Source: Rhododendron vialii (Eukaryota > Streptophyta > Magnoliopsida > Ericales > Ericaceae). From it: a DNA stretch of 64,000 bases. This document shows, in pieces, positions 11,701-26,587 of this stretch. Under the pieces are notes generated by a model. The model saw only the letters and a list, made by a program, of their open reading frames with translations. It ran no database searches and was not told the origin of the DNA. The first letter of the stretch is position 1, and every line of letters starts with the position of its first letter. The stretch lies in NCBI RefSeq assembly GCF_030253575.1, contig NC_080557.1, forward strand, positions 647,501-711,500, read 5' to 3'. Both the position numbers and the translations under genes were made by a program.

Positions 11701-12366
11701 ACCTTTCTGTGCAGCGCATACAACGAATGCCCAACATGTATCTGTTCAGCCCATTACACAAGTTATAAAAGTTGCAATTAGTATATCCAAAAGACATGCA
11801 TTATCAAATAACTTACCGAAAGGTCCTGGTCTCAGACTGGGTTCGTTATGGGGCGATGATCAACTATCATCTTGAATCGCCCCGTAGTAGATAGGCCCCA
11901 TTTTAGCAGCGTCTTGACCACCATTATTACTTATATGACCCAACAAAGCAACCTAGTAAATTGCATAACAATTCAGTCTAAATGATAGATCTATGAACAG
12001 TACAATAGAGACAAAATATCAAGCACTGGAAATAAGTGAGAGGTAATCATAAGAGAATATTCAATTTCTCACAAACCTAACCAATAGCATCAGTTTCAAT
12101 TTCTCATAGACGAAAAATAACCATTGTTTATGCAAATACTCAAAAAAATTTCCAGTTTCAGCTCACAGAGAGAAAATACCAAGCACTGGAAATAAGTGAG
12201 CAGTACTCATAAGAGACTGTCCAATTTCGCACAAACCTAACCAATAGAATTAGTATCAATTCTCACAGATGAAAAATAACCATTGTCCGTTTTGCAAATT
12301 GTCAGAAATTTATACAATATCAGCTCACTGGTAATGTTGCAGCTCGTCATTAATTTTGTGGCTACA
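11701..12366. other. AT-rich spacer with a degenerate internal repeat
   Basis: AAGCACTGGAAATAAGTGAG and the following CATAAGAGA...CAATTTC...ACAAACCTAACCAATAG occur twice (about 12019-12087 and 12182-12248). No gene was seen. Confidence 0.45.
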
Positions 12367-12548
12367 TGTAGACACCCCGATCTGACTTCCCGATCGTTTT
12401 ACTTTGTTCTTCGATTTCTTGATTCCCCGATGATGAATCAGGTCGAAAACAGTCTCGAGAACTTGGAATGGCTTGAGTTTGGCATGTGAGGAACCCTTTC
12501 TTAGCCCTTAAACCCTTGAATCAGAACCTGGACCTTGGGTTTGAATGT

Positions 12549-13772
12549 CGCGCGACACACTGGGACCCTCGCGCGATGGTCCATTTGCCAGGTGGTGGTC
12601 AAAGTCAAAGCTTTGACCATTGACCCGCGCGGGGTTGGCTGAAGCCTCGCGCGATGCTCTCACTTCGTCGCGCGATGGTCAACACCTGTCATTTTCACCC
12701 AGATTGCGTGGTGGTCAGGGGGCTACAGGCCTATGTGACCCCGTTTTTCTCGGCTAAACAGCGTTCTGGGGGGGCTCCCCTTGCACCACCTCACCCCCCA
12801 TTCTCCCATCACCTTTGCCACCCCACTCCTCCACCAAGCAATTGTAACCAGCATTGTTGGCTGGTTACAAGGCCTTGGCTAGCCACCAATTAACCCCTTT
12901 TTTCTATAAATACCCCCCCCCCCCCCCCCCATGCTTCCTTGCAAAGGGTCACCAATCTCTCTCCAAGAAAGAAGAAGGCAAACTCAAAGCACAAACATCT
13001 CACACCCCACTCATTCCCACATAATCACCCTCCAAATCTCACCATCTCATCATTCAAGCCATCTCCAAGACACTCAAGCAAAGGTATAATATCTTTCTGC
13101 TCACTGTTCGAACCCCTGAGGGGGGCTGGCAGGGTCAAGGCTGGTAATCGATACCAGTTCTGGCCCTAAAGCTAGCAGGGTTTCAAGAGCTGTTACCTGG
13201 GAAACCCTCGCGCGATGGTCCCATATACTCGCGCAACACTTCTGTCTGCGTGAGATTGGACCACGTGGGGAAGGGACCCTGGTCTTTAAGTTTATTATCG
13301 TGTTCATAGTCTTTTTAAAGTCTTTTAAGGAGCTTTAGCTCACTGCTTTGTTGTTTTGCATGTTGAAAATCATTGTTTAGCTTAGTTTATAATACCTCTT
13401 GGTTTAGAATGCTCTTGGGACGCTCCTGAACATGTCTCAGGGCCCTAAGTATGCAAAGCAATTCCTGGAAGTCCAGTCTGAACAGTCGCGCGCCTGTATC
13501 ACTCTGTCGCGCGATGGTTCTCTGTCTTCCAGGGACTGCCCTTGCATGAGCAGCTTGGCCTTGGCCTCTGTTTAGACACCCCCACTGTTTAGGGGTTGTG
13601 TTTTCATAATATTTCCATTTGTTTGCTGTAATATTGTTTACTTTCAAGTACTTATAAACTGCTTGGTTTGCACCTGGGTGAGCACTGGTCCTTCCAGAGC
13701 CCAGAAGGGGGTGAAATTCAAACCATTGGTGAAGCGTCAATACTCGCGCGAGTATATGGTTGTGTCGCGCGA
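12549..13772 (+). promoter_or_regulatory. Five pairs of TCGCGCGA motifs, each pair 21 bp apart
   Basis: Octamer starts are 12549/12570, 12647/12668, 13208/13229, 13486/13507 and 13744/13765. Every pair has exactly 13 bp between the two octamers. Eight are exact; 13229 reads TCGCGCAA and 13486 reads TCGCGCGC. TGGT or TGGTC usually follows. Function is unknown; the repeated palindrome at two-helical-turn spacing looks like a paired protein-binding array. Confidence 0.85.
12907..12930. repeat. Poly-C run
   Basis: A homopolymer of more than 20 C follows TATAAATAC inside LTR1. Confidence 0.9.
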
Positions 13773-14445
13773 TGGTTTGCTTGCATGCAGATGAACTCAC
13801 GCATGCAAGCTGGCTGTTTGTTCGTGCCAAAATCATACACAGCGCTGCCTTGATGTATGATCGACGTTTTGAACTTCATTCCATTTATTACTTGTCATCT
13901 CACTAATCCATGCCATATCTTATCACATCCTGCAAACATGTTACAGTATTAATCCCCGATTAACTGTTTCCCCGCCCTAATTGGCTAAAAATTGATTAAT
14001 CAAAATAGAATCGCAAACAAGCATTTTCGCAAATGCCTAAGTAGAGACCGATCTCCGGATTGGGTGAGAGGGGTGCCATAAAACCCTTCCCCTCTTGTAA
14101 CCTGGCTCCCGAACCCAGATATGGTTATGACGGGCTGGTTCCTTAACTTTTTCAAATCAAACAGCGCGACAAGTGCTTCGAAATACGGTTCCTTGGGTGT
14201 CGGACCTTCAAACCCGAGTGGCGACTCTGTATTTTTGCGAGCGCTTGTCGTCTAGCTGAAAGCGCTCCCGCGAACCGGCACTTTTCTCTTTTAGGAGGGG
14301 AATGGAATCCCTTCCTAGGAAAGAAAAAGGGGCACGCATGCCCACACTACAGTTTCTTCTGGAGATGTCCCACTAAATTCAATTTCTTCTCAGTACAACA
14401 GAGTTAGACTCGAATGGATTAGTTGCTGACTGAACGATGGCAGAA

Positions 14446-14650
14446 TCATGGTTGAATCAGCGCTTGCAGCTAAGGCATAGGCAATCCGTTTGGCTTGCTC
14501 CATGGCCAGAGCTTGGGGAGAAGGGAAGGCAATTATCGAATCGGATGGCGCTACTCTCATCTAGATGTTATCTCTACATACAGACAAGGGGGATTGGAGC
14601 ATACAGACTATCCTTGAGGATATTTTTGCTCGATCTACTAATGAGGATCA
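14446..14650 (+). pseudogene. RNase H (RVT_3-type) relic, probably from a non-LTR element
   Basis: One plus-strand frame reads ESALAAKA, AIRLACSMARAWGEGK, AIIESDGATLI and later DWSIQTILEDIF. This matches the order of conserved blocks in the plant RNase H domain found at the end of LINE polyproteins: the AxxxAxxxA helix, the E/VESD strand and the WxIxxIIxDI helix. Two in-frame stops interrupt it, so it is dead. The rest of the parent element was not found nearby. Confidence 0.55.
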
Positions 14651-14689
14651 TATTTTATGCTTTTGGTTACATTTTCTTGTGAGTAGGAT

Positions 14690-15370
14690 TGAGAAATATG
14701 GTAGATATAAAGTCCCACTAAATATGGGACGTACAACACTATAAGGATGTCGTGTTGTTAATTCTCCCGTTATTAGTCTAGTGGGATTATTTATCACAAG
14801 GAATAGTATAGCCTTTCCCCTTAGAAGCCCAATCAAGGACCCAGATGCGAAAATGGATATGGGACACGAACACAGTGAAAGACACCTCATAAACTACAGC
14901 TAAAATAAAAAGATAAGTGGCCAATAACATATCGTCGAACAACCAAAATGAAGGAAAATTAACTTAGCAAAAGAACGATCTCTAGCACTAATTTGGTATA
15001 ATTTGATCCATCAAAATACTAACAAGTAACAACAAAGTGAGTTAAGTTTGCTGCCATTTGATTCCAAAAATAAGTTTGATATGTTATGAAGTGACCACTT
15101 GGTGTCCACAGGTGTCTCAATTGAGGTTTGTCCTTGACGTGTCTTGTAGACGACCCCTAGTGATATAATTGTTTCAATACGCCTCTTGGCATGTCCCATA
15201 TGTACCCCATGTTTCCCTTTGTTTATGTGTCCTTGGCATGTCTTAAATGAATGTGGCAACCGTTTAGGCATGTTGATTCGTCATAGCCTTCTTTGTTATT
15301 TCAGTCAAACAACTGGTGCTAATGCATTCTGAATTCTGAAAGTATTTGCTGACACCACATATGGTTTTTT
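14690..15370. other. Spacer, no gene seen
   Basis: No frame or repeat with support. It forms the left flank of the solo LTR at 15376; removing that LTR rejoins TTTTTTGAGTC to CACCATCTC. Confidence 0.35.
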
Positions 15371-15375
15371 GAGTC

Positions 15376-17177
15376 TGCTTCGTTTGCTCCGATGTAATGG
15401 AATAACGCCCCAAGCGTAGGGCCTAAAACGTTTGTTGAAGCATAATAAATAGGAAATCCGGGATCGTACCCAAGGGAATATTATATGGCGTGCTCGGATT
15501 TGTAGATGCAAGTAGGGGCTTTCAGCTTTAAGACAGCCAACTTTGTTTTACTTTAACGGTGGAAATAAAAGGGCTAAATTAAAAAGTAATTAACTAGAGA
15601 AAAGATAGGCTAGGTCTATGAATTATTAACACCCAAGACCCGAGCTAAATCACACTCGTCACCCAATTAGTCAATTTAAGTTTCTTGGTTAAAGTTTTCA
15701 AATTGGAAAATAAAATGATTTGGGAATCAAGCTAGCTCTAGAATTCATTTGGCAAAAACCTCGTGCGAAAGAGCTCTAAGCATCATGTGTGGTGGGTAGG
15801 CGAAGCTCCCACCTACACATGATCAAAGAGGTTAACACCTCGGTGATTTGACAAATAAATCCGAACCCCACATCAATTTTCAAATCAAAGTTTAAAGCTT
15901 TATTGGGTGCAAAATGCAATTTTCGCCCGAGCCATGAGGTGCTAATCACCCCATGACCTAACCCTTGAAACTACTCACTCATATCTAGAGAGATAAAAGC
16001 AAGTGAAAAACTACTTGACATAATTGAAATAACAAGACTAGAAGAAAATTAGAGATTAAGATAGATCAGGAGAAGATAAACAACTTTAATTAAGGCAACA
16101 ATAACAAAAAGTAACAACTGAGGGCAGAAATTGAAATATTCAAAACTAAAAAATGAAGAACACTCAAGAACAACAAGAACAATTTGAATCTAGATCTAGA
16201 TCTAAAATTAGGTAAGCAAATCTAAGTCTACTTTCTATATATTCTACTTGTTTGTACAAAACAATGACATAAGCTTTTATACTCTGGGTGATCCGCGCCT
16301 GGAATATTCCCAAGATGATCCGAAAATCCACCTCTAAGCCCCTCGGCATCGATGGCAACGGCCTTAGGGTGCTCTGCTAACATGCTCGGCATCGATGGAC
16401 CTTGAAACCTTACATCGATGCCGAGGTCCATAGCTCAGATTTTCTTAAGTGCTTCGGCATCGATGGATCTCCATTCTTCCCATCGATGCCGAAGCCCATA
16501 GCTCGGCGCTCTGGTTTGCTGCTGCCTTGGCCATCTGCTTCTTGCTCGGGCAAATCTGGTTCTACTCGGGCAACTCTGGTTCTGCTCGGGCAAATCTCCA
16601 CAGCATCTTATTTTCATTCTCTAAACTTAAGTAAAGATTGCATTTTAAACCTTTCTTTTACCTTTTCTTTACTTTAATTTATTTAATGAAATAAGGAAGT
16701 ACCCCCCATTTGGAAACAATGGCATTACCAGAATTTTGAGATTTCAATCCAATCAAAATGTTGACCCCCAGCTTTTAGTGTAAAACAGAAAACAGCACAC
16801 TTTTCTATCGAATAAATGGCTCAAAACATGACCTTAATCTTTGAATAAAATCTTGCAATTTTGAAGTTGCTCTTAGAAAAATTCAAGGATTAATTACCGT
16901 CATTTTTTATCTCGAAAATCGATATTTTTTCGAAAAGTGATTTTTCCATACTTAGACAGATTTTCAGGGGCCGATAGGGTCTTCATTGGTTCCTTGGGTA
17001 CTTGGACGCACTCAGGCCATGGATGATGTCAAAATATGCCTTATTCACACGATTTCCCTGAAAGTACTAAAAACATACCTTATGAGTAAACGCAATTAAG
17101 AAGCAACTACTTAAGCGATGAAATTAACTAAAACTAGATACTAGCGCACCCTGCATTGCATTAACGGGTGCTTATCA
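15376..17177. mobile_element. Solo LTR with 5-bp target duplication (fossil, 'LTR3')
   Basis: 1802 bp starts TGCTTCG and ends GGTGCTTATCA, flanked by GAGTC at 15371-15375 and 17178-17182. TG...CA ends plus a perfect 5-bp duplication indicate a solo LTR left by recombination. Inside lie GGGATCGTACCCAAGGG near 15460 and a cluster of ATCGATG palindromes (16345-16490), then three GCTCGGGCAA-type repeats (16546-16596). The lineage is Ty3/gypsy-like by style but not proven. Age is unknown because no partner LTR exists. Confidence 0.8.
16345..16490. repeat. Cluster of GGCATCGATG motifs in both orientations
   Basis: Copies start at 16345, 16388 and 16456 (GGCATCGATG) and at 16413 and 16481 (the inverse, CATCGATGCC). 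The two inverted pairs, 16388/16413 and 16456/16481, have the same spacing: 23 bp between CATCGATG cores. Confidence 0.85.
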
Positions 17178-17475
17178 GAGTCACCATCTCAACATGAAGT
17201 TTTGAAGCTTTATCATCTTGTTCCTTCTGTTAGGGGTTTAGATATAGATTGCCTGTAACATATGGGATGTCTCCAAGCCCTCGTGTTGTTACTAGCATAG
17301 AGAAAAGGTTAGTGTTGCAAGTTGCAACTAAGAAAACTTTAGCAGTAGTAGGTAACACCCCAACACTTAACGGGAGATCAGCAATATAATTGGAAACACA
17401 ACGATTCAGATAGCCCAAATCCCCCTCCCCCCCCTTCCCTCCCACCAAATGAAAAATTGTACAATAATATTGACT

Positions 17476-19733
17476 ATTGAGTAAGAATTGAATAACGTGA
17501 ACTAAATGAAATCAATCTGTCATCTTAAATTTTGCAGGTGGAAATATGCCAGGTTAAGGGTTGCTGAATGTTTCTGAAGTTATCGTCTGCAAGGCATCTT
17601 CCCATGTATGTGTGCAAAATACAGGAAACACTCAGTAATTAAACTTGTAAACCTTTTGTGTGGATATGCTGTTGAAGATAGACATGTACCAAAGTACTAG
17701 CAATAATTGGTTTCTTCGTTCTAGTGTGAATTGGTTTCTTCGTTGTAGTGTGATGATGTCAATCAAAGTATATAATGTAACTATTGTTGTAATGTAGATC
17801 CACACGTGTTGATACCCTAAACTTCACATTTCCTCAAATTCAATTGAACATGAGGGGATAGAAATCCATTTTTTACTACCTCAAGAGAAGGGGAAAAAAT
17901 GAAAAAGAGAATCAATGAAAATGCATAACAATTAACCTAGTTATAGAGGATAGAAGTTGAAGGGAAAATGATTGAACCTATGGAAATTTAAATTTCATAA
18001 CAATGCAGAGAGGGAGAGAAATTGGGAAACCTTGAGAGACTGTTGAGGATGGAAAAAGGAGTTTCTCAGTGAATCTGGGTCAGGTAGATTTCGTGGGAGA
18101 TGATGACTATATCGGCCCGTTTGGATGCGGGTAAAAAATGGGGGTATTAGTTAATAAGGGGGATAAGATAGTAGGGGGTATTAGTTAATATGGGAGGGCC
18201 CATATTGATGTGATGTTTATGGAGGTGCATTGAGTAAGAATTGAATAACGTGAACTAAATGAAATCAATCTGTCATCTTAAATTTTGCAGGTGGAAATAT
18301 GCCAGGTTAAGGGTTGCTGAATGTTTCTGAAGTTATCGTCTGCAAGGCATCTTCCCATGTATGTGTGCAAAATACAGGAAACATTCAGTAATTAAACTTG
18401 TAAACCTTTTGTATGGATATGCCGTTGAAGATAGACATGTACCAAAGTACCAGCAATAATTGGTTTCTTCGTTCTAGTGTGAATTGGTTTCTTCGTTGTA
18501 GTGTGATGATGTCAATCAAAGTATATAATGTAACTATTGTTGTAATGTAGATCCACACGTGTTGATACCCTAAACTTCACATTTCCTCAAATTCAATTGA
18601 ACATGAGGGGATAGAAATCCATTTTTTACTACCTCAAGAGAAGGGAAAAAAATGAAAAAGAGAATCAATGAAAATGCATAACAATTAACCTAGTTATGGA
18701 GGATAGAAGTTGAAGGGAAAATGATTGAACCTATGGAAATTTAAATTTCATAACAATGCAGAGAGGGAGAGAAATTGGGAAACCTTGAGAGTCTGTCGAG
18801 GATGGAGAAAGGAGTTTCTCAGTGAATCTGGGTCAGGTAGATTTCGTGGGAGATGATGACTATATCGGCCCGTTTGGATGCGGGTAAAGAATTTGGGGTA
18901 TTAGTTAATAAGGGGGATAAGATAGTAGGGGGTATTAGTTAATATGGGAGGGCCCACATTGATGTGATGTTTATGGAGGTACATTGAGTAAGAATTGAAT
19001 AACGTGAACTAAATGAAATCAATCTGTCATCTTAAATTTTGCAGGTGGAAATATGCCAGGTTAAGGGTTGCTGAATGTTTCTGAAGTTATCGTCTGCAAG
19101 GCATCTTCCCATGTATGTGTGCAAAATACAGGAAACACTCAGTAATTAAACTTGTAAACCTTTTGTGTGGATATGCCGTTGAAGATAGACATGTACCAAA
19201 GTACCAGCAATAATTGGTTTCTTCGTTCTAGTGTGAATTGGTTTCTTCGTTGTAGTGTGATGATGTCAATCAAAGTATATAATGTAACTATTGTTGTAAT
19301 GTAGATCCACACGTGTTGATACCCTAAACTTCACATTTCCTCAAATTCAATTGAACATGAGGGGATAGAAATCCATTTTTTACTACCTCAAGAGAAGGGA
19401 AAAAAATGAAAAAGAGAATCAATGAAAATGCATAACAATTAACCTAGTTATAGAGGATAGAAGTTGAAGGGAAAATGATTGAACCTATGGAAATTTAAAT
19501 TTCATAACAATGCAGAGAGGGAAAGAAATTGGGAAACCTTGAGAGACTGTCGAGGATGGAAAAGGGAGTTTCTCAATGAATCTGGGTCAGGTAGATTTCG
19601 TGGGAGATGATGACTATATCAGCCCGTTTGGATGCGGGTAAAGAATTGGGGGTATTAGTTAATAATGGGGATAAGATAGTAGGGGGTATTAGTTAATATG
19701 GGAGGGCCCACATTGATGTGATGGTTATGGAGG
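17476..19733 (+). repeat. Threefold tandem repeat, unit about 753 bp
   Basis: Copies start at 17476, 18229 and 18983 with ATTGAGTAAGAATTGAATAA and differ only at scattered positions. Each unit joins about 637 bp of flanking DNA to the first 115 bp of a DNA transposon (from GGCCCGTTTGGATG). Only the third copy continues into the rest of the transposon. No supportable gene lies in the unit. Confidence 0.95.
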
Positions 19734-20072
19734 GAGATTAAATAATAAGTTGTTTGGATGAGATATTAGAAAAGGGGGATTAAATAGTATTTTGTTTGGA
19801 TAGGGGATAAGGAAGGGGGTATAAGGAAGGGGGATGATGTAAAAAGCTGTCTAATGACTATTTTGCCCTTGTGCAGTATTAAATTAGATTATTCATTAAA
19901 TTAAATATATAATTATAAAATTCAACATATTTTTTATTTTTTAGACATGATTAATCAAGAATTATTTTACTAATATAATAATTATATAAAAATAAATAAA
20001 GCATTAAAATTTCATTTTTTAAGTGCTTTATTATATTTATGTTTATTTTTTAAAAAGAAAAATTCTAAAATC

Positions 20073-20197
20073 AGCCCATTGGGCTGACGATAGTAGGTGT
20101 GTGAATATGTATTAAAGGATGTAAAAAATACACAGAAATACGTGTTTTTGTTGTCTTGTAGTGTGTTTATCGTCAGTCCACTGGGCTGACAATAGCA
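20073..20197. mobile_element. Short nested MITE (CAGCCCA-TTGGGCTGACGATA ends)
   Basis: The left end CAGCCCATTGGGCTGACGAT and the right end, complementary to TCAGCCCAGTGGACTGACGA, bracket about 120 bp inside the larger transposon. Each end is itself a small palindrome. Confidence 0.55.
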
Positions 20198-20580
20198 AGA
20201 CCGTTTTAAAAATTTTGAAATTTTAAAATGTGAAATTACGTACCTATTATTTGGATAAAAAAAATTAAGAATATCTTTGTTGAAAATGTTTAATACAAAT
20301 ACTTAATCATGTTTAAAGTAGGAAATTTTATCATTTTTTAAAAATGTTTTAAAAAACCAAAATTTGTTGAAATTTTTAAGAAACCAAAATTTATAAAATG
20401 AATGGAAAGTAGATGGTGGTTAGAAACATGTGGGTGTTAGTTGAAATCATGTGAGGAGTAGGTTTCAACAAACTATTTATTTTCAATTTTTCTATAAATA
20501 GCACTCATTTTTTTATATCTCATCCCACATCTCATCTTCATTTCCTAAGTTCATTATTATTATTTTTTTCTTCATTTCAA

Positions 20581-20894
20581 TGGCACGTCGGGCTTGGAGC
20601 GAGGAGGAGGAGGAGGATACGTTGTTAACAAACCTAACGAGCCTTGTAGATCAAAGGGTTTGGCGAACTGACAACGGATATTTTCGCAATTCCTACTTGA
20701 GAGTTCTTAAAAATGAGATGCGAGTTTCTTTCCCTCAAGCAGGGATAAACGAGATTCATATCGAAGGAAGGATCAAGAAATGGAAGAGTGATTATCACAT
20801 ACTAGACGCTATGCTTAGGCATCCTGGGTTTGGGTGGAATCCAAATGAAAACAAACTAGTGGTGGAAAATGAAGTTTGGAATGAATTTGTTTAA
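20581..20894 (+). CDS. Myb/SANT-like DNA-binding protein (transposon ORF1 type)
   Basis: 104 residues begin MARRAWSEEEEEDTLLTNL and end GWNPNENKLVVENEVWNEFV. This is the Myb/SANT-like domain found in PIF/Harbinger ORF1 proteins and plant L10-interacting-MYB relatives: a W-S-EEE start, a DNG(Y)FR turn, HIEGRIKKWKSDY and FGWN near the end. A probable continuation starts after an acceptor near 20980 with DHRHLRYFR and FPYFNRW, matching the FPYYD/IFGKDRA segment of relatives, but it soon loses frame. The protein would bind element ends and partner a transposase that is absent here, so this is likely a relic or the helper of a nonautonomous element. Confidence 0.6.
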
Positions 20895-21312
20895 GTAAGT
20901 ACTCTTCAATTTGTTTTCAATTTTGTATAAAGTATTGTTTTGTAAATTTTGTTAATGTTTTAGTAAAATTTATATGTAGGATCACCGACATCTGAGATAT
21001 TTTCGGGACTGACAATTTCCCTATTTCAATCGATGGGCCTATTGCTTTGTTTCTTAGGAGAACTAGAAGTTCGAAGTTTAAGGCGGGCATTGGAAGAATA
21101 AATTAAAAGTTGTGATAATAAATGTATTGACGAATAAATTTGTAGGCTTCCTAATGTATCTCAAGTGTTTAATTTGATTTGAGATTAGTACCCTTTGTAA
21201 AAATAATGTAGTCTTCATTTCCAAATTACGAAATTAAACTCATAACTTGCTTACAAATCGAATAGATGTGCGAACAGAATACAAAGTCTTAAAATTACAA
21301 ATTTTTACAAGT

Positions 21313-21561
21313 TTATTCCGAATCGAATAAACGTGCCAATAAAATACAGCATACGAATCCTAAGACAAATATCCCAATAAAGTATGCTATCAGACTTGTT
21401 CGATGTTGATCTGCCAAAGCAATTGCGAAAGCGGAAGCACTGTCACTTGATTGACGTTTGATTGGGGCCAACTGCATCTCTTGATTCAGCCGATATCTTT
21501 CCTCATGAAAATGTAACAATGCTCCTTCTGCTTCCTTGAACGTGTTGTACAATTTCTTCAA
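21313..21561 (-). CDS. Small unrecognised ORF with C-terminal membrane segment
   Basis: 82 residues include EGALLHFHEERYRLNQEMQL and a hydrophobic stretch LIAYFIGIFVLGFVCCILL (about residues 56-74), ending LFDSE. I do not recognise a family. It lies inside the DNA transposon on the opposite strand to the Myb-like ORF. It may be a captured exon or chance; the amphipathic then hydrophobic pattern is the only support. Confidence 0.3.
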   Translation of the reverse strand: MKKLYNTFKEAEGALLHFHEERYRLNQEMQLAPIKRQSSDSASAFAIALADQHRTSLIAYFIGIFVLGFVCCILLARLFDSE

Positions 21562-21599
21562 GTTCCCCGGGCATGCATCTCTTCAACGTGTTGGACACA

Positions 21600-22740
21600 G
21601 GACACAGTTTGGACACACGCATACACACTGTCCAATTCACACACATGGCTACAAGTAGCACAAACTAGGAGAAAACTGCACTGTACAGTTTGGACATAGG
21701 ACACAGATTTGCATGCTGTTTTTCTATAGAACAGAACAGAACAGCCTTAAAATTTGCAGAAAACTGCCCAACAGAACATCATTACAAACTGTAGAAAACT
21801 GCCACCAAAACTTAATAAAATAGCAACTCATAATGGGATAAGTCTTGACAATAATTCTATCAATTGGCTCAGATATTTCAATTTTCAAGGTCAGTTTTCT
21901 TGGTTACTACTTATGTTGCCGAACGGTCGTGAACCCGTTGACCCTCACAAGTGTCCTACCAAGATGAGTGTATACCCTTGAGTGTATTTCCATTTCATCA
22001 CAGCCATATAATAGTAGGCGCCGTTTGGTTGGCATGCATTTATTCTGTAGTTTGCACCCACGCACACACTGTCCAACTCTTTGGCCAACAATTTGCAGAA
22101 ACCAAGCTAAGTGTAGAAACAACAGAACTAACAAACCAAGCTAACAAAAAACTGCAGAAACCAACTTGGAGCATTTCCAGAATTTCCATAACAGAAACCA
22201 ACCAACTAGGAAAAGGAAAACATCCTGCTATTTTCTGTAGTCATCTATCCACAACACTGCTTCAAAAATAGGTCAGAAAACATTATGCCCTACAGTTTGC
22301 ACACACACAAACACACACACATAGCAGAACAGAAAACTGCAGAAACCAACTTGGTAGTGGACTATAGCATCACAATTATGAACTCAGAAAACTGCACCAA
22401 ACTGTAGAAAACTGCAGAAAATTCCAACTCACTACACTGCTATAACCATGCACACACCTGGAATGGTCAACACACGCACTCACACACAGCACAGTTGAAC
22501 CTGCAGAACAGCTTCCAATAACAGCATTCTATTACCACAAAATTGCTTGAAAACCAAGTAAACCTCATGACAAGTGCAGAAAACAAGTTGCAAGCCCAGA
22601 ATACAACTTTCTAAATGAAGAGAACAGCATGCAAACCCCTTAACAGAGTCAAAGTTGAGGAAAATTGAATTTTTGCTCAGAAAACATGGGGTCAGAAACC
22701 AACACACACACACACACCTGCACTGCTTTGCACATAGAGA
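21600..22740. repeat. Region of dispersed AGAAAACTGCAG-type and (CA)n motifs
   Basis: GAAAACTGC occurs again and again (for example near 21643, 21761, 21792, 22330, 22386 and 22407), often followed by AGAAACCAACTTGG, mixed with CACACACA runs. No gene was found. Dispersed subterminal motifs are common in class II elements; that role is inference. Confidence 0.5.
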
Positions 22741-24380
22741 CTATATACCCACTAATTTGTGCACCTGGTCCACATATGAACATAACCGCAGGTGAAAATT
22801 GAATTGGGCTCAGAAAATATTTATGGAATCATAAGGGTACTCTTGGCTGCAACTAATGTTACCCCGCTAAGGTATCTACCTTAATTAAGAAATTAATTGA
22901 TTCATCATTGCCCTAGTTGCAAGTATGACACACATTAGTTTCCAAAACCTGTCATGCAAGAAATATTCATATTACATTCCACATTTCCAAAAAATTGCAT
23001 CAAATGTAGCAACATAAGGCATACAAATTATTCAACTAAAACTATTTATTCAAAACTCTAAATTTCACCTTTTCAACTATTTATACATAACTACAATTAT
23101 GTATTCATAACTCCAAATATGAATGGGTTTGACACACGTCTACAAAAAAATTTCAATTCCCAACTATTCATTAGTTGACAAAATTCTAAAATAAGTTGAG
23201 CAGAGGTCAGTTTGACACTAGGACAAGTACCCATACCCAATATTCCCACAAAAGTCCAAGAAACATAGCAGCTGAGACATGCAAAACCATATATCCAAGT
23301 TAGCAATGGCACTTGCAAAAATACCCATCGCAGAACCACAATTTGTCTATTTTGCAATTATATCAGAAAGGCGTTCACATAATGAAGTGATCACAGGCAA
23401 CAAAAAGCTCTTCCATGTTGTTAGTAATTAACTACAGAAATCAACATTCACTAGGAAGAACATTCAAGAAATGATAGACCTCTTCTTCATCAATTACTCT
23501 TGCTTGTATAGTCGTATGTATCATCCATTAGCTGAATTGAGGGCTCTATGCATTAGCTTAAAATTAGGGCAGTACTGTAGAGTTGTGAATATATAGTTGA
23601 TACTAGTGAACATATGAGTGTGAATGTGTGTTTTATCTTATCAAAACTCTTTAGAAGGAGGCTTGAACGTGATCAACCCAAAAATTAAACCAAAAACACA
23701 GACATTTGTAAATGGGATTAATGAAGAGGGTAAAGCCTCTTTTTTCTTTTTCCTGTTTTTGATTTGTGTTTTCAGTTGCTATCTCTCTTTGGCAGTCTAT
23801 AGAATCTGAAAACTAAAAAATAAAAAACTTCTCTTTTTGGCAGTCGCACAATCCATTACAAAACTAAAATCTAAAAACAAAAAAATTGAAAACAAGAAAT
23901 CAAAAATAAAGAGTCGTCTTCATCATATAATCTGTGAAGTAGTTGGCTAATCTCTCTATACAGCAGCATTTTGATTCGACCCATAAAAATCTACGAGTCT
24001 CTACAAAATCAAGACCTGGGTCTTGAGGAGGACGACATAGTTGGCTGTTTCTTGGAACAAATAATACAAAATCAGAAACCAAAAATATGTCCAGACCCAG
24101 TCCATGGAGAACACAAAATCACAAGTAGAAGAGAAAACCCACACATCCGTACTCGAAAATCAACAAAAAACGAATCACACAACAAATCGAGGCTAAAATC
24201 GGTTAATAGAACCTCATACCTGACTTAATCGAGGCTAAAATCGGTTGCACTCACCAAATCGCCACTGCTCTGGAAAACGAAACCACAATGGTGGGCGACA
24301 GAAATGGGAAGCTGGAGGTGAGAGAAGGGGGATAAAGAGGGGTGAAATCGTCCAGTTTGAAAGGGGATTAGGGGGGATAA
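22741..24380. other. Transposon interior, no gene seen
   Basis: AT-rich DNA with short open frames only. AATCGAGGCTAAAATCGGTT occurs twice (about 24185 and 24224) near the inner right end. Confidence 0.4.
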
Positions 24381-24547
24381 CTCATGGTCACCTCCAACCC
24401 TAGCCGAAGATAAGACCGCCGATGCCCCCTTTCTCCGGTCTTAGCCAAGAAACGGTTTTGTGGAAAACCCCTGACTTTGTGGCTCCTAAACGGGGGCAAC
24501 GCGTGGGCCCCTAGTCTTGTATAGGAGGGAAAATTAATCCCACCTCC

Positions 24548-26541
24548 TGTAGTATGGGCACGCGCCCCCGGAAATTCTATTTGTAAAATCGGGCGCGGCC
24601 CTTTTTGTTTGGAAGAGCGCGGCGAAACGCCTCTATTCAGAGTCGCCACTCGGGTTTTAGCAGTGAGAGCACCCAAGGAACCGAACTCGAAAAACGTTTG
24701 CCACGTTTGTTTGATTTTGAAAAGGCTTGTAGACTGGACCGTCGTCACCTTCGATATTTGAGGTTCGGGAGCCAGGTTAAGAGAGGGGAAGGGTTTTATG
24801 GCACCCTTCTCGCCCAATCCGGAGATCGGTCTCTACTCGGGCATTTTGTAAAAGCGCTTGCATTTCTCTCTCATTTGATCATTTTTTAGCCAGTTAGGGC
24901 AGGGGAACAGATAATGGGGATTAAAGCATTATAACAAGTTGTGATTTCTGTGGCAAAATGTTTATGAATGGCTTGATTGCAATGCTAAATATAGATTGAG
25001 AACAGGCACTGAGCAAACTGGACAAATTGCAGTACGCTGCCCCGCAGGGGCGTGAGCAGATTCTACCAGCATGCACTGGCCGAGCCACTGCATGTTGATT
25101 TGACTTGCGCACGCCACAGGGAGACGGGCGTACTCCACTCATCTAGTTTCACAGTCCTTGTTTGCAACCCTCTGGGCTCTGGAAAAGGACCAGTGCACAC
25201 CCAGGACAAACCATGCAGTTTAAATAAGCAGGATATATATTTACAGACAGCTGGGATGGCTTGAAGCCATGAACATAGACAAGAAACCCCCTAAACAGAG
25301 TGGGGACAGAAAAGAGGCCAAGACTGAACTAAGATGCAAGGGCCAGCCACTGGATCCTAGCTTTAACTGCCGTACGCCAGTCATGGACTGCCGTACGCAC
25401 GTTTGACCCTAATCCAGTGCTTGGCTTTTACATCATCTGGGCTCTGGAACATGACCAGAAGGATCCCAGAGGCCTTCCAAACAGATAAAGAATAAGCAAT
25501 AACCTTTGTATCTAAACAGTTCTAAACACACAGAAAGCAATAAACTGGTTATTTAGCATGCAAGGGTGATTGACAGAAAGATAGAGCAAAAGGAATGACG
25601 ATCCATGATCCCCACGCCAGTGGTGCTCGTACTGCCATAACTGGCGTACGGCATAGGGTTACTGGCGTGCGCCATGTTCCATCTGATACGATTGTCGTAT
25701 TTTACCAGTTTGACGCCAGGACTAGCATTACTTACTAGCTTGGGCCTCACTGGCTCCCCTCAGGGGCCAAAAACAGAAAGGGACACAAAGGTGGTATACC
25801 TTTTTGTTTGAGGATTGAAGGTGGTATTGAACTTTAAAGCTTGGAGATGGAAGCTTAGATGGTGACTGGATGTCAGCAGGGTGTGTGGAAGTGGACTGTT
25901 TTCTTTTCTCTTTCAATGGAAGAAAAAGAGATAGAGAGCAAGAAAGGAGGAAGGAGAGAGCTTCTACTTCTTAATGAGGCCAACCCCTTGCAAATGAATG
26001 CAAGGGGGGTATTTATAGAGGGGGAGTGACTGAGATCAGTTTGATCTAGGGCCTTGTTTGGCTGGTTAAGGCAAGGTTGGAGCCTCCCATGCATTAAATG
26101 CATGGGACTTGCCTTGATGGGGGGTGTAGGAGAGAGAGGGAACGTCTCTGCCAAGAGTAATCATCAGGGACGCTGTAGCCGACGTCAGGGTGGCACAAAA
26201 GTCCCGCCCAAGTTGCTGAATAAAGTTGATTTGACTGGATTTGACTGGCGTGCGCCACTATTAACTGGTGTGCGCCAGTAAAAGATGGGCCCCTGGTCGA
26301 TGACTGACACGTGGCAGGTGACTGGCGTACGCCTCCAGGACACTGGCGTATGCCAATTGGGTTTTGCTGGGGCTATTTGGCTCTGGTTTGAAGGGTTTGA
26401 AAGGGGTTTTGAGAGAGGTTCGGGACGCTCAAAGCTCAATCACACATTTGTCCTTAAACTGTTTTCGACTAAGATCATCATCGGGGAAATAAAAGATCGA
26501 CAAATAACGCTATCTGGACAGTCCAGAATGAGGTGTCTACA
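24548..26541 (-). mobile_element. Tat-like LTR, minus orientation, with short internal stub (fossil, 'LTR2')
   Basis: On the minus strand it begins TGTAGACACC (plus 26532-26541) and ends CCCATACTACA (plus 24548), about 1994 bp, aligning with LTR1 along its length. About 165 bp of further element sequence appears to continue on its 3' side to near 24384. CCCGAGTGGCGACTCTG is shared with LTR1. It is inserted in the right end of the DNA transposon, so it is younger than that transposon. It is a fragment; no partner LTR is present, so insertion age cannot be measured. Confidence 0.6.
25106..26354 (-). promoter_or_regulatory. Five pairs of GGCGTACGCC-type motifs, 20-21 bp apart
   Basis: Decamer starts on the plus strand are 26324/26345, 26247/26267, 25643/25664, 25369/25390 and 25106/25127. 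Spacings are 21, 20, 21, 21 and 21 bp. The exact palindrome GGCGTACGCC is at 26324; others differ at one to three positions (GGCGTGCGCC, GCCGTACGCC, GGCGTATGCC). The pairs occupy the positions that hold TCGCGCGA pairs in LTR1. Confidence 0.8.
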
Positions 26542-26587
26542 TATAGCAGCATCCAAACGGGCCATGGATGCTCTATGATGACTATAT

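Follow-up and report, generated by a model that had tools for sequence, protein, structure and literature searches.

Two solo long terminal repeats (LTRs) in a 64,000-nucleotide stretch of the Rhododendron vialii genome (NC_080557.1, positions 647,501 to 711,500, forward strand; hereafter the window) belong to a group of large Ogre/Tat-like Ty3 retrotransposons, and both carry short palindromes in pairs, mostly 21 bp apart. There are at least five palindrome types in this LTR group, and the two window LTRs use different ones. The explanation that best accounts for the observations as a whole, to which we assign a probability of about 0.6, is that the pairs bind a plant mobile domain (PMD) protein encoded by the element itself, and that sites and protein change together.

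The first of the window LTRs, LTR1 (W1; 12367..14346, plus strand), is 1,980 bp long, starts with TGTAGACACC, ends with GCCCACA, and is of type A, characterized by the palindrome TCGCGCGA. Its ends were set by comparison with related LTRs and by alignment with the second LTR, and it is flanked by two copies of a CTACA target site duplication (12362..12366 and 14347..14351). LTR2 (W2; 24553..26541, minus strand), delimited in the same way, is 1,989 bp long, runs from TGTAGACACC to GCCCATA, and is of type B (GCGTACGC); CTATA adjoins its 5' side (26542..26546) and CTACA, with one mismatch to CTATA, its 3' side (24548..24552). Among 99 sampled stretches of this group, 16 show a CCCACA end followed directly by a GTGGCGACTC[TC]GCTGGGG-like sequence, a putative primer-binding site (PBS) that may fit tRNA-Arg, as the PBS of Ogre does, and in the cases compared by eye the other related LTRs end at a copy of the five bases that precede the LTR or its partner. 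Because the borders of the window LTRs match these ends and are accompanied by 5-bp flanking copies, both are read as solo LTRs. The TG...CA termini and 5-bp target duplications typical of Ogre recur in related copies (for instance CTACA/CTACA at W1, ATATC at L009, CCACT at L013, and TCGAC at L017), as does the large element with a PMD-encoding extra open reading frame (ORF), here an antisense one in an element of ~20.8 kb bounded by L010 and L011.

The palindromes of LTR1 fall into five clusters, namely TCGCGCGA at 12548 and 12569 (pair 1, 12544..12580), a triple (12621..12679, steps of 22 and 21 bp), and pairs at 13208 and 13229 (pair 3, 13204..13240), 13486 and 13507 (pair 4, 13482..13518), and 13744 and 13765 (pair 5, 13740..13776), each of the four pairs with a 21-bp step. 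An earlier note on this DNA, made from the letters of the window, had listed ten pair members in LTR1; all are present, except that the first begins at 12548 rather than 12549, and that the sites at 13229 (TCGCGCAA) and 13486 (TCGCGCGC) each carry one mismatch. An eleventh site, CCGCGCGG at 12625, lies 22 bp ahead of TCGCGCGA at 12647, which with 12668 completes the triple. In the case of LTR2, the pairs are 16-mers on the minus strand at LTR offsets 185 and 206 (pair 1, 26321..26357), 263 and 283 (pair 2, 26244..26279), 866 and 887 (pair 3, 25640..25676), 1140 and 1161 (pair 4, 25366..25402), and 1403 and 1424 (pair 5, 25103..25139), with a step of 20 bp in pair 2 and of 21 bp elsewhere. The GGCGTACGCC form ascribed to these sites is exact at 26324 only, the other nine of the ten being imperfect or variant. 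TATA-box-like sequences, identified by word match, stand at offset 538 of LTR1 (12904..12911, plus strand), with two site clusters upstream and three downstream, and at offset 524 of LTR2 (26011..26018, minus strand). LTR2 also contains an internal repeat of ~175 bp, 64% alike (25058-25230 and 25321-25498), that takes in pairs 5 and 4.

The two LTRs can be aligned end to end, and the claim that the pairs occupy the same places in both holds for pairs 3-5, which lie in homologous alignment columns, whereas pairs 1 and 2 are merely near each other. Likewise, the proposed switch from one palindrome to another needs softening, as the motifs do differ but both retain CG at positions +-2/3 relative to the centre, and likewise GT at +7/+8. 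The 21-bp spacing does exceed chance, with six pairs at 20-22 bp in LTR1 against a maximum of one, and seven in LTR2 against a maximum of three, in 500 dinucleotide shuffles of each. In a scan of the whole window for perfect 8-bp palindromes with three or more different letters that recur, allowing one mismatch, at distances of 9-59, three of the eight cases found have a 21-bp step, all of them TCGCGCGA in LTR1; a single GCAATTGC pair and four CATCGATG pairs make up the rest.

Related LTRs were drawn from the host genome (532.6 Mb, 13 contigs), where the LTR-start word TGTAGACACC occurs 4,755 times, versus 513 for the reversed word. The sample consists of 100 listed places, all within the first 15.3 Mb of contig C1 and picked by LTR start, not by palindromes; 97 were fetched, two are the window LTRs, and one (8311503) lies inside a fetched stretch, leaving 99 stretches for analysis. 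A conserved domain of ~260 bp near the LTR 3' end is present in 72 of them, and these, the window LTRs included, form the 72-LTR set. A motif-free search for near-palindromic 10-mers in 62 stretches gave 88 pairs at 21 bp, 12 at 20 and 8 at 22, with 0-3 at each other distance from 12 to 60, save at the between-cluster distances of 57 bp (16) and 49 bp (14). The best palindrome per stretch is mostly one of five types: A (TCGCGCGA), B (GCGTACGC), C (GAGCGCTC), D (CCGTACGG/CCGCGCGG), or E (GCGCGCGC). With their context these are 16-bp palindromes, and when sites are picked by the 8-bp core alone, information extends to +-8 bp in types A to D, patchily on the left in E, and beyond +-8 bp falls sharply in A, B, and D (the profiles of C and E come from 13 and 14 distinct sites).

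When 16-bp templates are applied to the 72 LTRs, 345 pairs are found at 20-22 bp, versus 5 at the control distance of 30-32 bp and 1 in shuffled sequence (one dinucleotide shuffle per LTR), and at least one pair is present in 70 of the 72. Triples and longer rows keep the same step, as seen in L043, L055, L082, and the A triples. The share of paired sites that are of the LTR's own type is 125/135 in A, 455/462 in B, 21/21 in C, 18/19 in D, and 16/28 in E, and since the templates were drawn from the same data, these shares speak for consistency within copies and not for the discreteness of the types. The earlier note had reasoned that mixed motifs within an LTR, or random spacing, would sink the idea of a concerted switch; across the 97 fetched stretches and the two window LTRs each copy is consistent within itself and the spacing holds constant, so that the idea survives, with the exception of one small clade (L093, L095, L098, and L062) that mixes TCGCGCGA and GCGCGCGC forms. 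Genome-wide, the pattern TCGCGCGA N5-34 TCGCGCGA occurs 3,445 times, versus 20 for the reversed pattern, and among 50 listed distinct places the step is 21 bp in 47 and 27 bp in 3.

A tree of the 3' domain, which contains none of the A or B pairs, places the B LTRs (45 plus 3 previously unassigned) in one clade with support of 100/100, the family labels having been set by hand beforehand from the palindromes of each stretch. The D-type rows (4 plus one unassigned) and the C-type rows (2 plus one unassigned) form further clades, and with a midpoint root A is a grade from which B and E arise.

The manner in which the pairs are conserved is suggestive of protein binding. For 44 LTRs out of the 48 in the B clade (L025, L028, and L031, with insertions or duplications, and L101, a twin of L100, were omitted), column identity averages 0.847 in sites and 0.443 in the spacers within pairs, compared with 0.806 in LTR sequence outside the sites and their flanks; neither the site-spacer contrast nor the low spacer value is matched by any of 20,000 random placements. 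The spacer is nonetheless held at 5 bp in pairs 1, 3, 4, and 5 (44, 44, 42, and 43 of the 44 LTRs; 173/176) and at 4 bp in pair 2 (40/44), with 16-30 different spacer sequences per pair. CpG retention in B LTRs is 0.916 inside sites (18) versus 0.771 outside (47). A spacer whose length is held while its letters are free is what would be expected of a pair of dimers bound to the same face of the helix, and these sequence patterns make it very likely that the pairs are occupied by dimers of some protein two helical turns apart.

Two explanations that dispense with such a protein fare poorly against these data. Gene conversion or tandem duplication could have spread a functionless palindrome within each LTR, as the ~175-bp internal repeat of LTR2 that spans pairs 4 and 5 might suggest. 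However, concerted homogenization of this kind is contradicted by the variability of the spacers relative to the sites: the spacers vary from pair to pair and from copy to copy, more than any other stretch measured, and are much less conserved than the flanking sites, whereas site-specific variants, for instance the CGGC end of pair 4, are passed down within the clade. Gene conversion, offered by the earlier note as an alternative, is thus disfavoured, and we regard homogenization as having almost no chance of being correct. Alternatively, the two equal palindromes of a pair could pair with one another as RNA or single-stranded hairpins, copy a with copy b. The fixed spacer of ~5 nt would make a tight loop, though, and odd numbers of sites exist (the A-type triples, L043, L055, and L082). 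Moreover, a change in one copy is accompanied by the compensating change in the other in 26 of 88 cases, where one third is expected, and matching changes within pairs are therefore not above chance. This explanation is very improbable.

If a protein does bind the pairs, the elements themselves provide a candidate. The L010-L011 element is of type B and extends from C1:116460 to ~137233 (about 20.8 kb), with CCTTG on both sides and the two stretches as its LTRs; upstream of the 3' LTR it bears an antisense gene, the exons of which are predicted from reading frames and splice-like borders. A full A element, for which L107 was read for exon 1, has LTR starts at C1:7481221 and 7500562, with TAGGG on both sides in L047 and L046. 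A further A-type relative of the gene is found in L070, where the TGTAGACACC word is a chance match within exon 1; the 5' LTR of that element would be L071, and its 3' LTR was not seen. The exon 2 products match PF10536, the PMD domain, at 6e-28 (B) and 2e-31 (A), or 98.4 and 109.8 bits against a gathering cut-off of 34.9. The same proteins (L106:308-949, minus strand, and L070:1105-1743, plus strand) also give weak matches to DUF1985, at 5.5e-4 and 2.3e-3, below the Pfam cut-off, and PMD and DUF1985 may be one distant superfamily. Identity between the A and B proteins is 70% in exon 2, 54% in exon 3, and 44% in exon 1.

The PMD genes carry the palindromes of their own family. In the B gene, B pairs are located at -232/-212 and +199/+220 from the ATG, and in the A gene, A pairs are located at -246/-225 and +181/+202, one pair in each case in the promoter and the other in the first exon. 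The promoter pairs of the two genes coincide in pairwise alignment, and no sites of the opposite type were found in the A and B gene stretches read. Taken with the LTRs, there are thus seven matching places, five in the LTR and two in the gene, that hold palindrome A in one family and palindrome B in the other. The repetition of a family's own palindrome inside its extra gene, in two families, suggests that the protein of that gene reads the sites and changes with them, and on the strength of these sequence relationships PMD is probably the reader of the pairs. The exon 1 pairs (L107:1037-1073 and L003:106-142) lie in coding sequence, with the consequence that the 21-base step yields a seven-residue peptide repeat, RRATQSD/RRATVEV in A and RRTPGGM/RCTPGSV in B. 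The A elements also have an extra four-site A cluster (steps of 21, 27, and 21 bp) past the PMD gene start, at C1:7487280-7487356, with same-distance copies at 7835551-7835627 and 9378472-9378548, three copies being listed in all.

The association of gene and LTR extends beyond single elements. Of 150 scored matches to the B-type exon 2, 17 are on C1, and the 8 of these (query included) that fall where LTR starts are listed are all antisense and 2.1-2.8 kb from a B-type LTR start, with a chance of 0.011 each. Four A-type matches fall in the same range; two, in near-twin elements, are antisense and 2,743 bp from an A LTR start, and the others are L070 itself and one beside L037. Among 150 listed A-type exon 2 matches, 14 are at 100%, query included, and three A-type copies (two at 100%, one at 99%) are spaced ~18.7 kb apart on C7; such near-identical copies point to recent spread.

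A reader could also be supplied by the host, the families having drifted to different transcription factors or chromatin proteins of the plant. A TATA-like box stands between the pairs inside the LTR, a usual place for host factors to bind, a CG-rich core is common to types A and B, and the host PMD proteins MAIN and MAIL1 affect genes with a promoter motif, as described in PMC7156037 and PMC9899485. Yet the palindromes, five or more and alike in length and spacing, would call for five factors of like build, each swapped at about ten sites together, and the recurrence of the same pairs within the element's own PMD gene fits poorly with a host reader, which we consider unlikely. Another protein of the element, such as Gag, integrase, or the product of another extra ORF, might instead read the pairs, for instance to recognize its own DNA or RNA, given that LTRs are handled by element proteins and that the internal region was read in parts only. 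This is improbable, as the only extra gene seen bears pairs in its promoter and exon 1, in the manner of self-regulated DNA-binding genes. Transposase_28 (PF04195) was considered as a reader and set aside for these elements: 150 of 1,960 candidates were scored, and for the seven matches in the part of C1 below 15.34 Mb the distance to the nearest listed LTR start is ~7.6 to 290 kb. Nor were these matches seen by eye beside listed type F LTR starts, the listing covering C1 and part of C2.

Several observations weigh against PMD as a co-changing reader. Two of the 72 LTRs (L021 and L094) have no pair at the threshold used, and type E mixes with A and shades into it. Conservation of the sites taken by itself is unexceptional, being equalled in 2,294 of 20,000 random placements, and in the B clade a change in one palindrome half is accompanied by a compensating change in the opposite half no more often than by chance (20/58). 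Given the 70% identity of exon 2 in the two types, specificity would have to reside in a small number of residues or else in the diverged exon 1, and own-type pairs in the gene come from one element per type, plus L070 for A. The PMD gene beside L037 (C1:6246288-6249087), where an A-type LTR is joined to it ~80-100 bases past the conserved 3' domain, is in sense orientation to that LTR, which we read as a rearranged derivative. The A protein, the only one searched, has no sequence match among solved structures, and the anti-silencing role discussed below is put forward by analogy only. To our knowledge, no DNA-binding fold is known for PMD.

If PMD is the reader, the following mechanism can be envisaged. 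Each ~16-bp palindrome would seat one dimer of a sequence-specific protein, and a second dimer would occupy the same DNA face at a distance of two helical turns. The PMD protein, encoded antisense upstream of the 3' LTR in full-length Ogre-type elements, would bind the LTR pairs, which in types A and B form two clusters upstream of the TATA-like box and three downstream, as well as those in the promoter and first exon of its gene. Bound PMD might then counter silencing by opening or activating the chromatin of the element, or else adjust its transcription. As the palindrome differs from family to family, this action would be restricted to the protein's own family, with sites and protein changing together to give families A to E. 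That PMD, once bound, counters silencing or raises transcription of its own family has slightly less than an even chance of being right; this step draws on the analogy with VANC proteins and on the placement of the pairs around the promoter.

We read this arrangement as a VANC-like address system in LTR retrotransposons, by analogy with the VANDAL elements, Mutator-like DNA transposons (MULEs) of Arabidopsis (PMC5735166). Shared by both systems are an element-borne gene, short family-specific motifs in noncoding parts and near the element's own genes, and motif change between related families. The differences are that VANDAL is a MULE with a VANA transposase, whereas LTRs and a PBS-like sequence are found here; that the protein is VANC there and PMD here; that the VANC motifs have the same orientation and lie in tandem repeats, whereas here they are mostly fixed pairs two turns apart at matching places; and that anti-silencing has been demonstrated for VANC and is proposed by analogy for PMD. 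The word palindrome is absent from the text of the VANC paper. VANC proteins are drawn with DUF1985 in a figure legend of that paper, and since PMD exon 2 of both types matches DUF1985 below the cut-off, the analogy is faintly supported. It had been raised in the earlier note, and gains from the finding that one full-length element of type A and one of type B each bear an antisense PMD gene containing own-type pairs; overall, the interpretation given in that note is partly supported.

Related elements have been described before. Clades of PMD-A are Gypsy-borne according to PMC5418596, which leaves PMD function undetermined and speculates on anti-silencing for MULE-captured PMDs; a PF10536 domain in a Gypsy-borne gene is common to those proteins and to ours, whereas no mention of target sites was met in the passages of that paper that were consulted. 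For the Ogre lineage, PMD is reported in 57% of elements (PMC6317226), and very large size and the 5-bp target duplication typical of plant LTR retrotransposons are further points in common, with LTR palindrome pairs the point of difference, as none were met in the sections seen. Retand TRP28 (PMC11963269) likewise has an antisense extra ORF before the 3' LTR, for which its author predicted DNA binding, but it encodes PF04195 and not PF10536, and the scored PF04195 matches lie outside the present elements where this could be checked. Insertion of LTR retrotransposons into palindromes, apparently the subject of PMC6911290, is a different matter. No prior report of paired palindromes in such LTRs was found among open-licence papers at the level of titles and abstracts, which is no proof of absence, and a full-text literature search with six 12-base palindromes returned four papers, none of which deals with retrotransposons as judged by title or abstract start. 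A 21-base stretch conserved in the LTRs has no exact match in the viral and prokaryote collections.

LTR retrotransposons make up much of many plant genomes. If the proposal is true, they run a self-addressed form of regulation known so far from VANDAL DNA transposons, and the palindrome pairs are concrete candidate target sites, already sorted by family, with which PMD binding and change of specificity become testable together. A broader generalization can be advanced tentatively, namely that Gypsy-borne PMD proteins are dimeric anti-silencers that bind DNA sequence-specifically, with fast-changing specificity, and are distant kin to VANC, that some seven or more pairs self-address each Ogre family, and that host MAIN and MAIL1 descend from, or share ancestry with, such proteins.

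The window holds a solo LTR of a second family between LTR1 and LTR2 (15376-17177, minus strand; TGATAAGCACC...CGAAGCA, with GAGTC on both sides). Upstream of its TATA-like box are five TCGGCATCGATGCCGA-like 16-bp palindromes, including two pairs at 23 bp, and palindromes at such steps suggest that the device may be wider than the Ogre-type group. The 13-base start of this LTR occurs 515 times in the genome, versus 2 for the control, with some copies ~12.0 kb apart. Elsewhere in the window, a unit of ~754 bp is repeated head-to-tail three times at 17476-19748, the copies being 98-99% alike, and an ORF at 20582-20894 (plus strand) presumably encodes, as judged by eye, a Myb/SANT protein of a PIF/Harbinger transposon.

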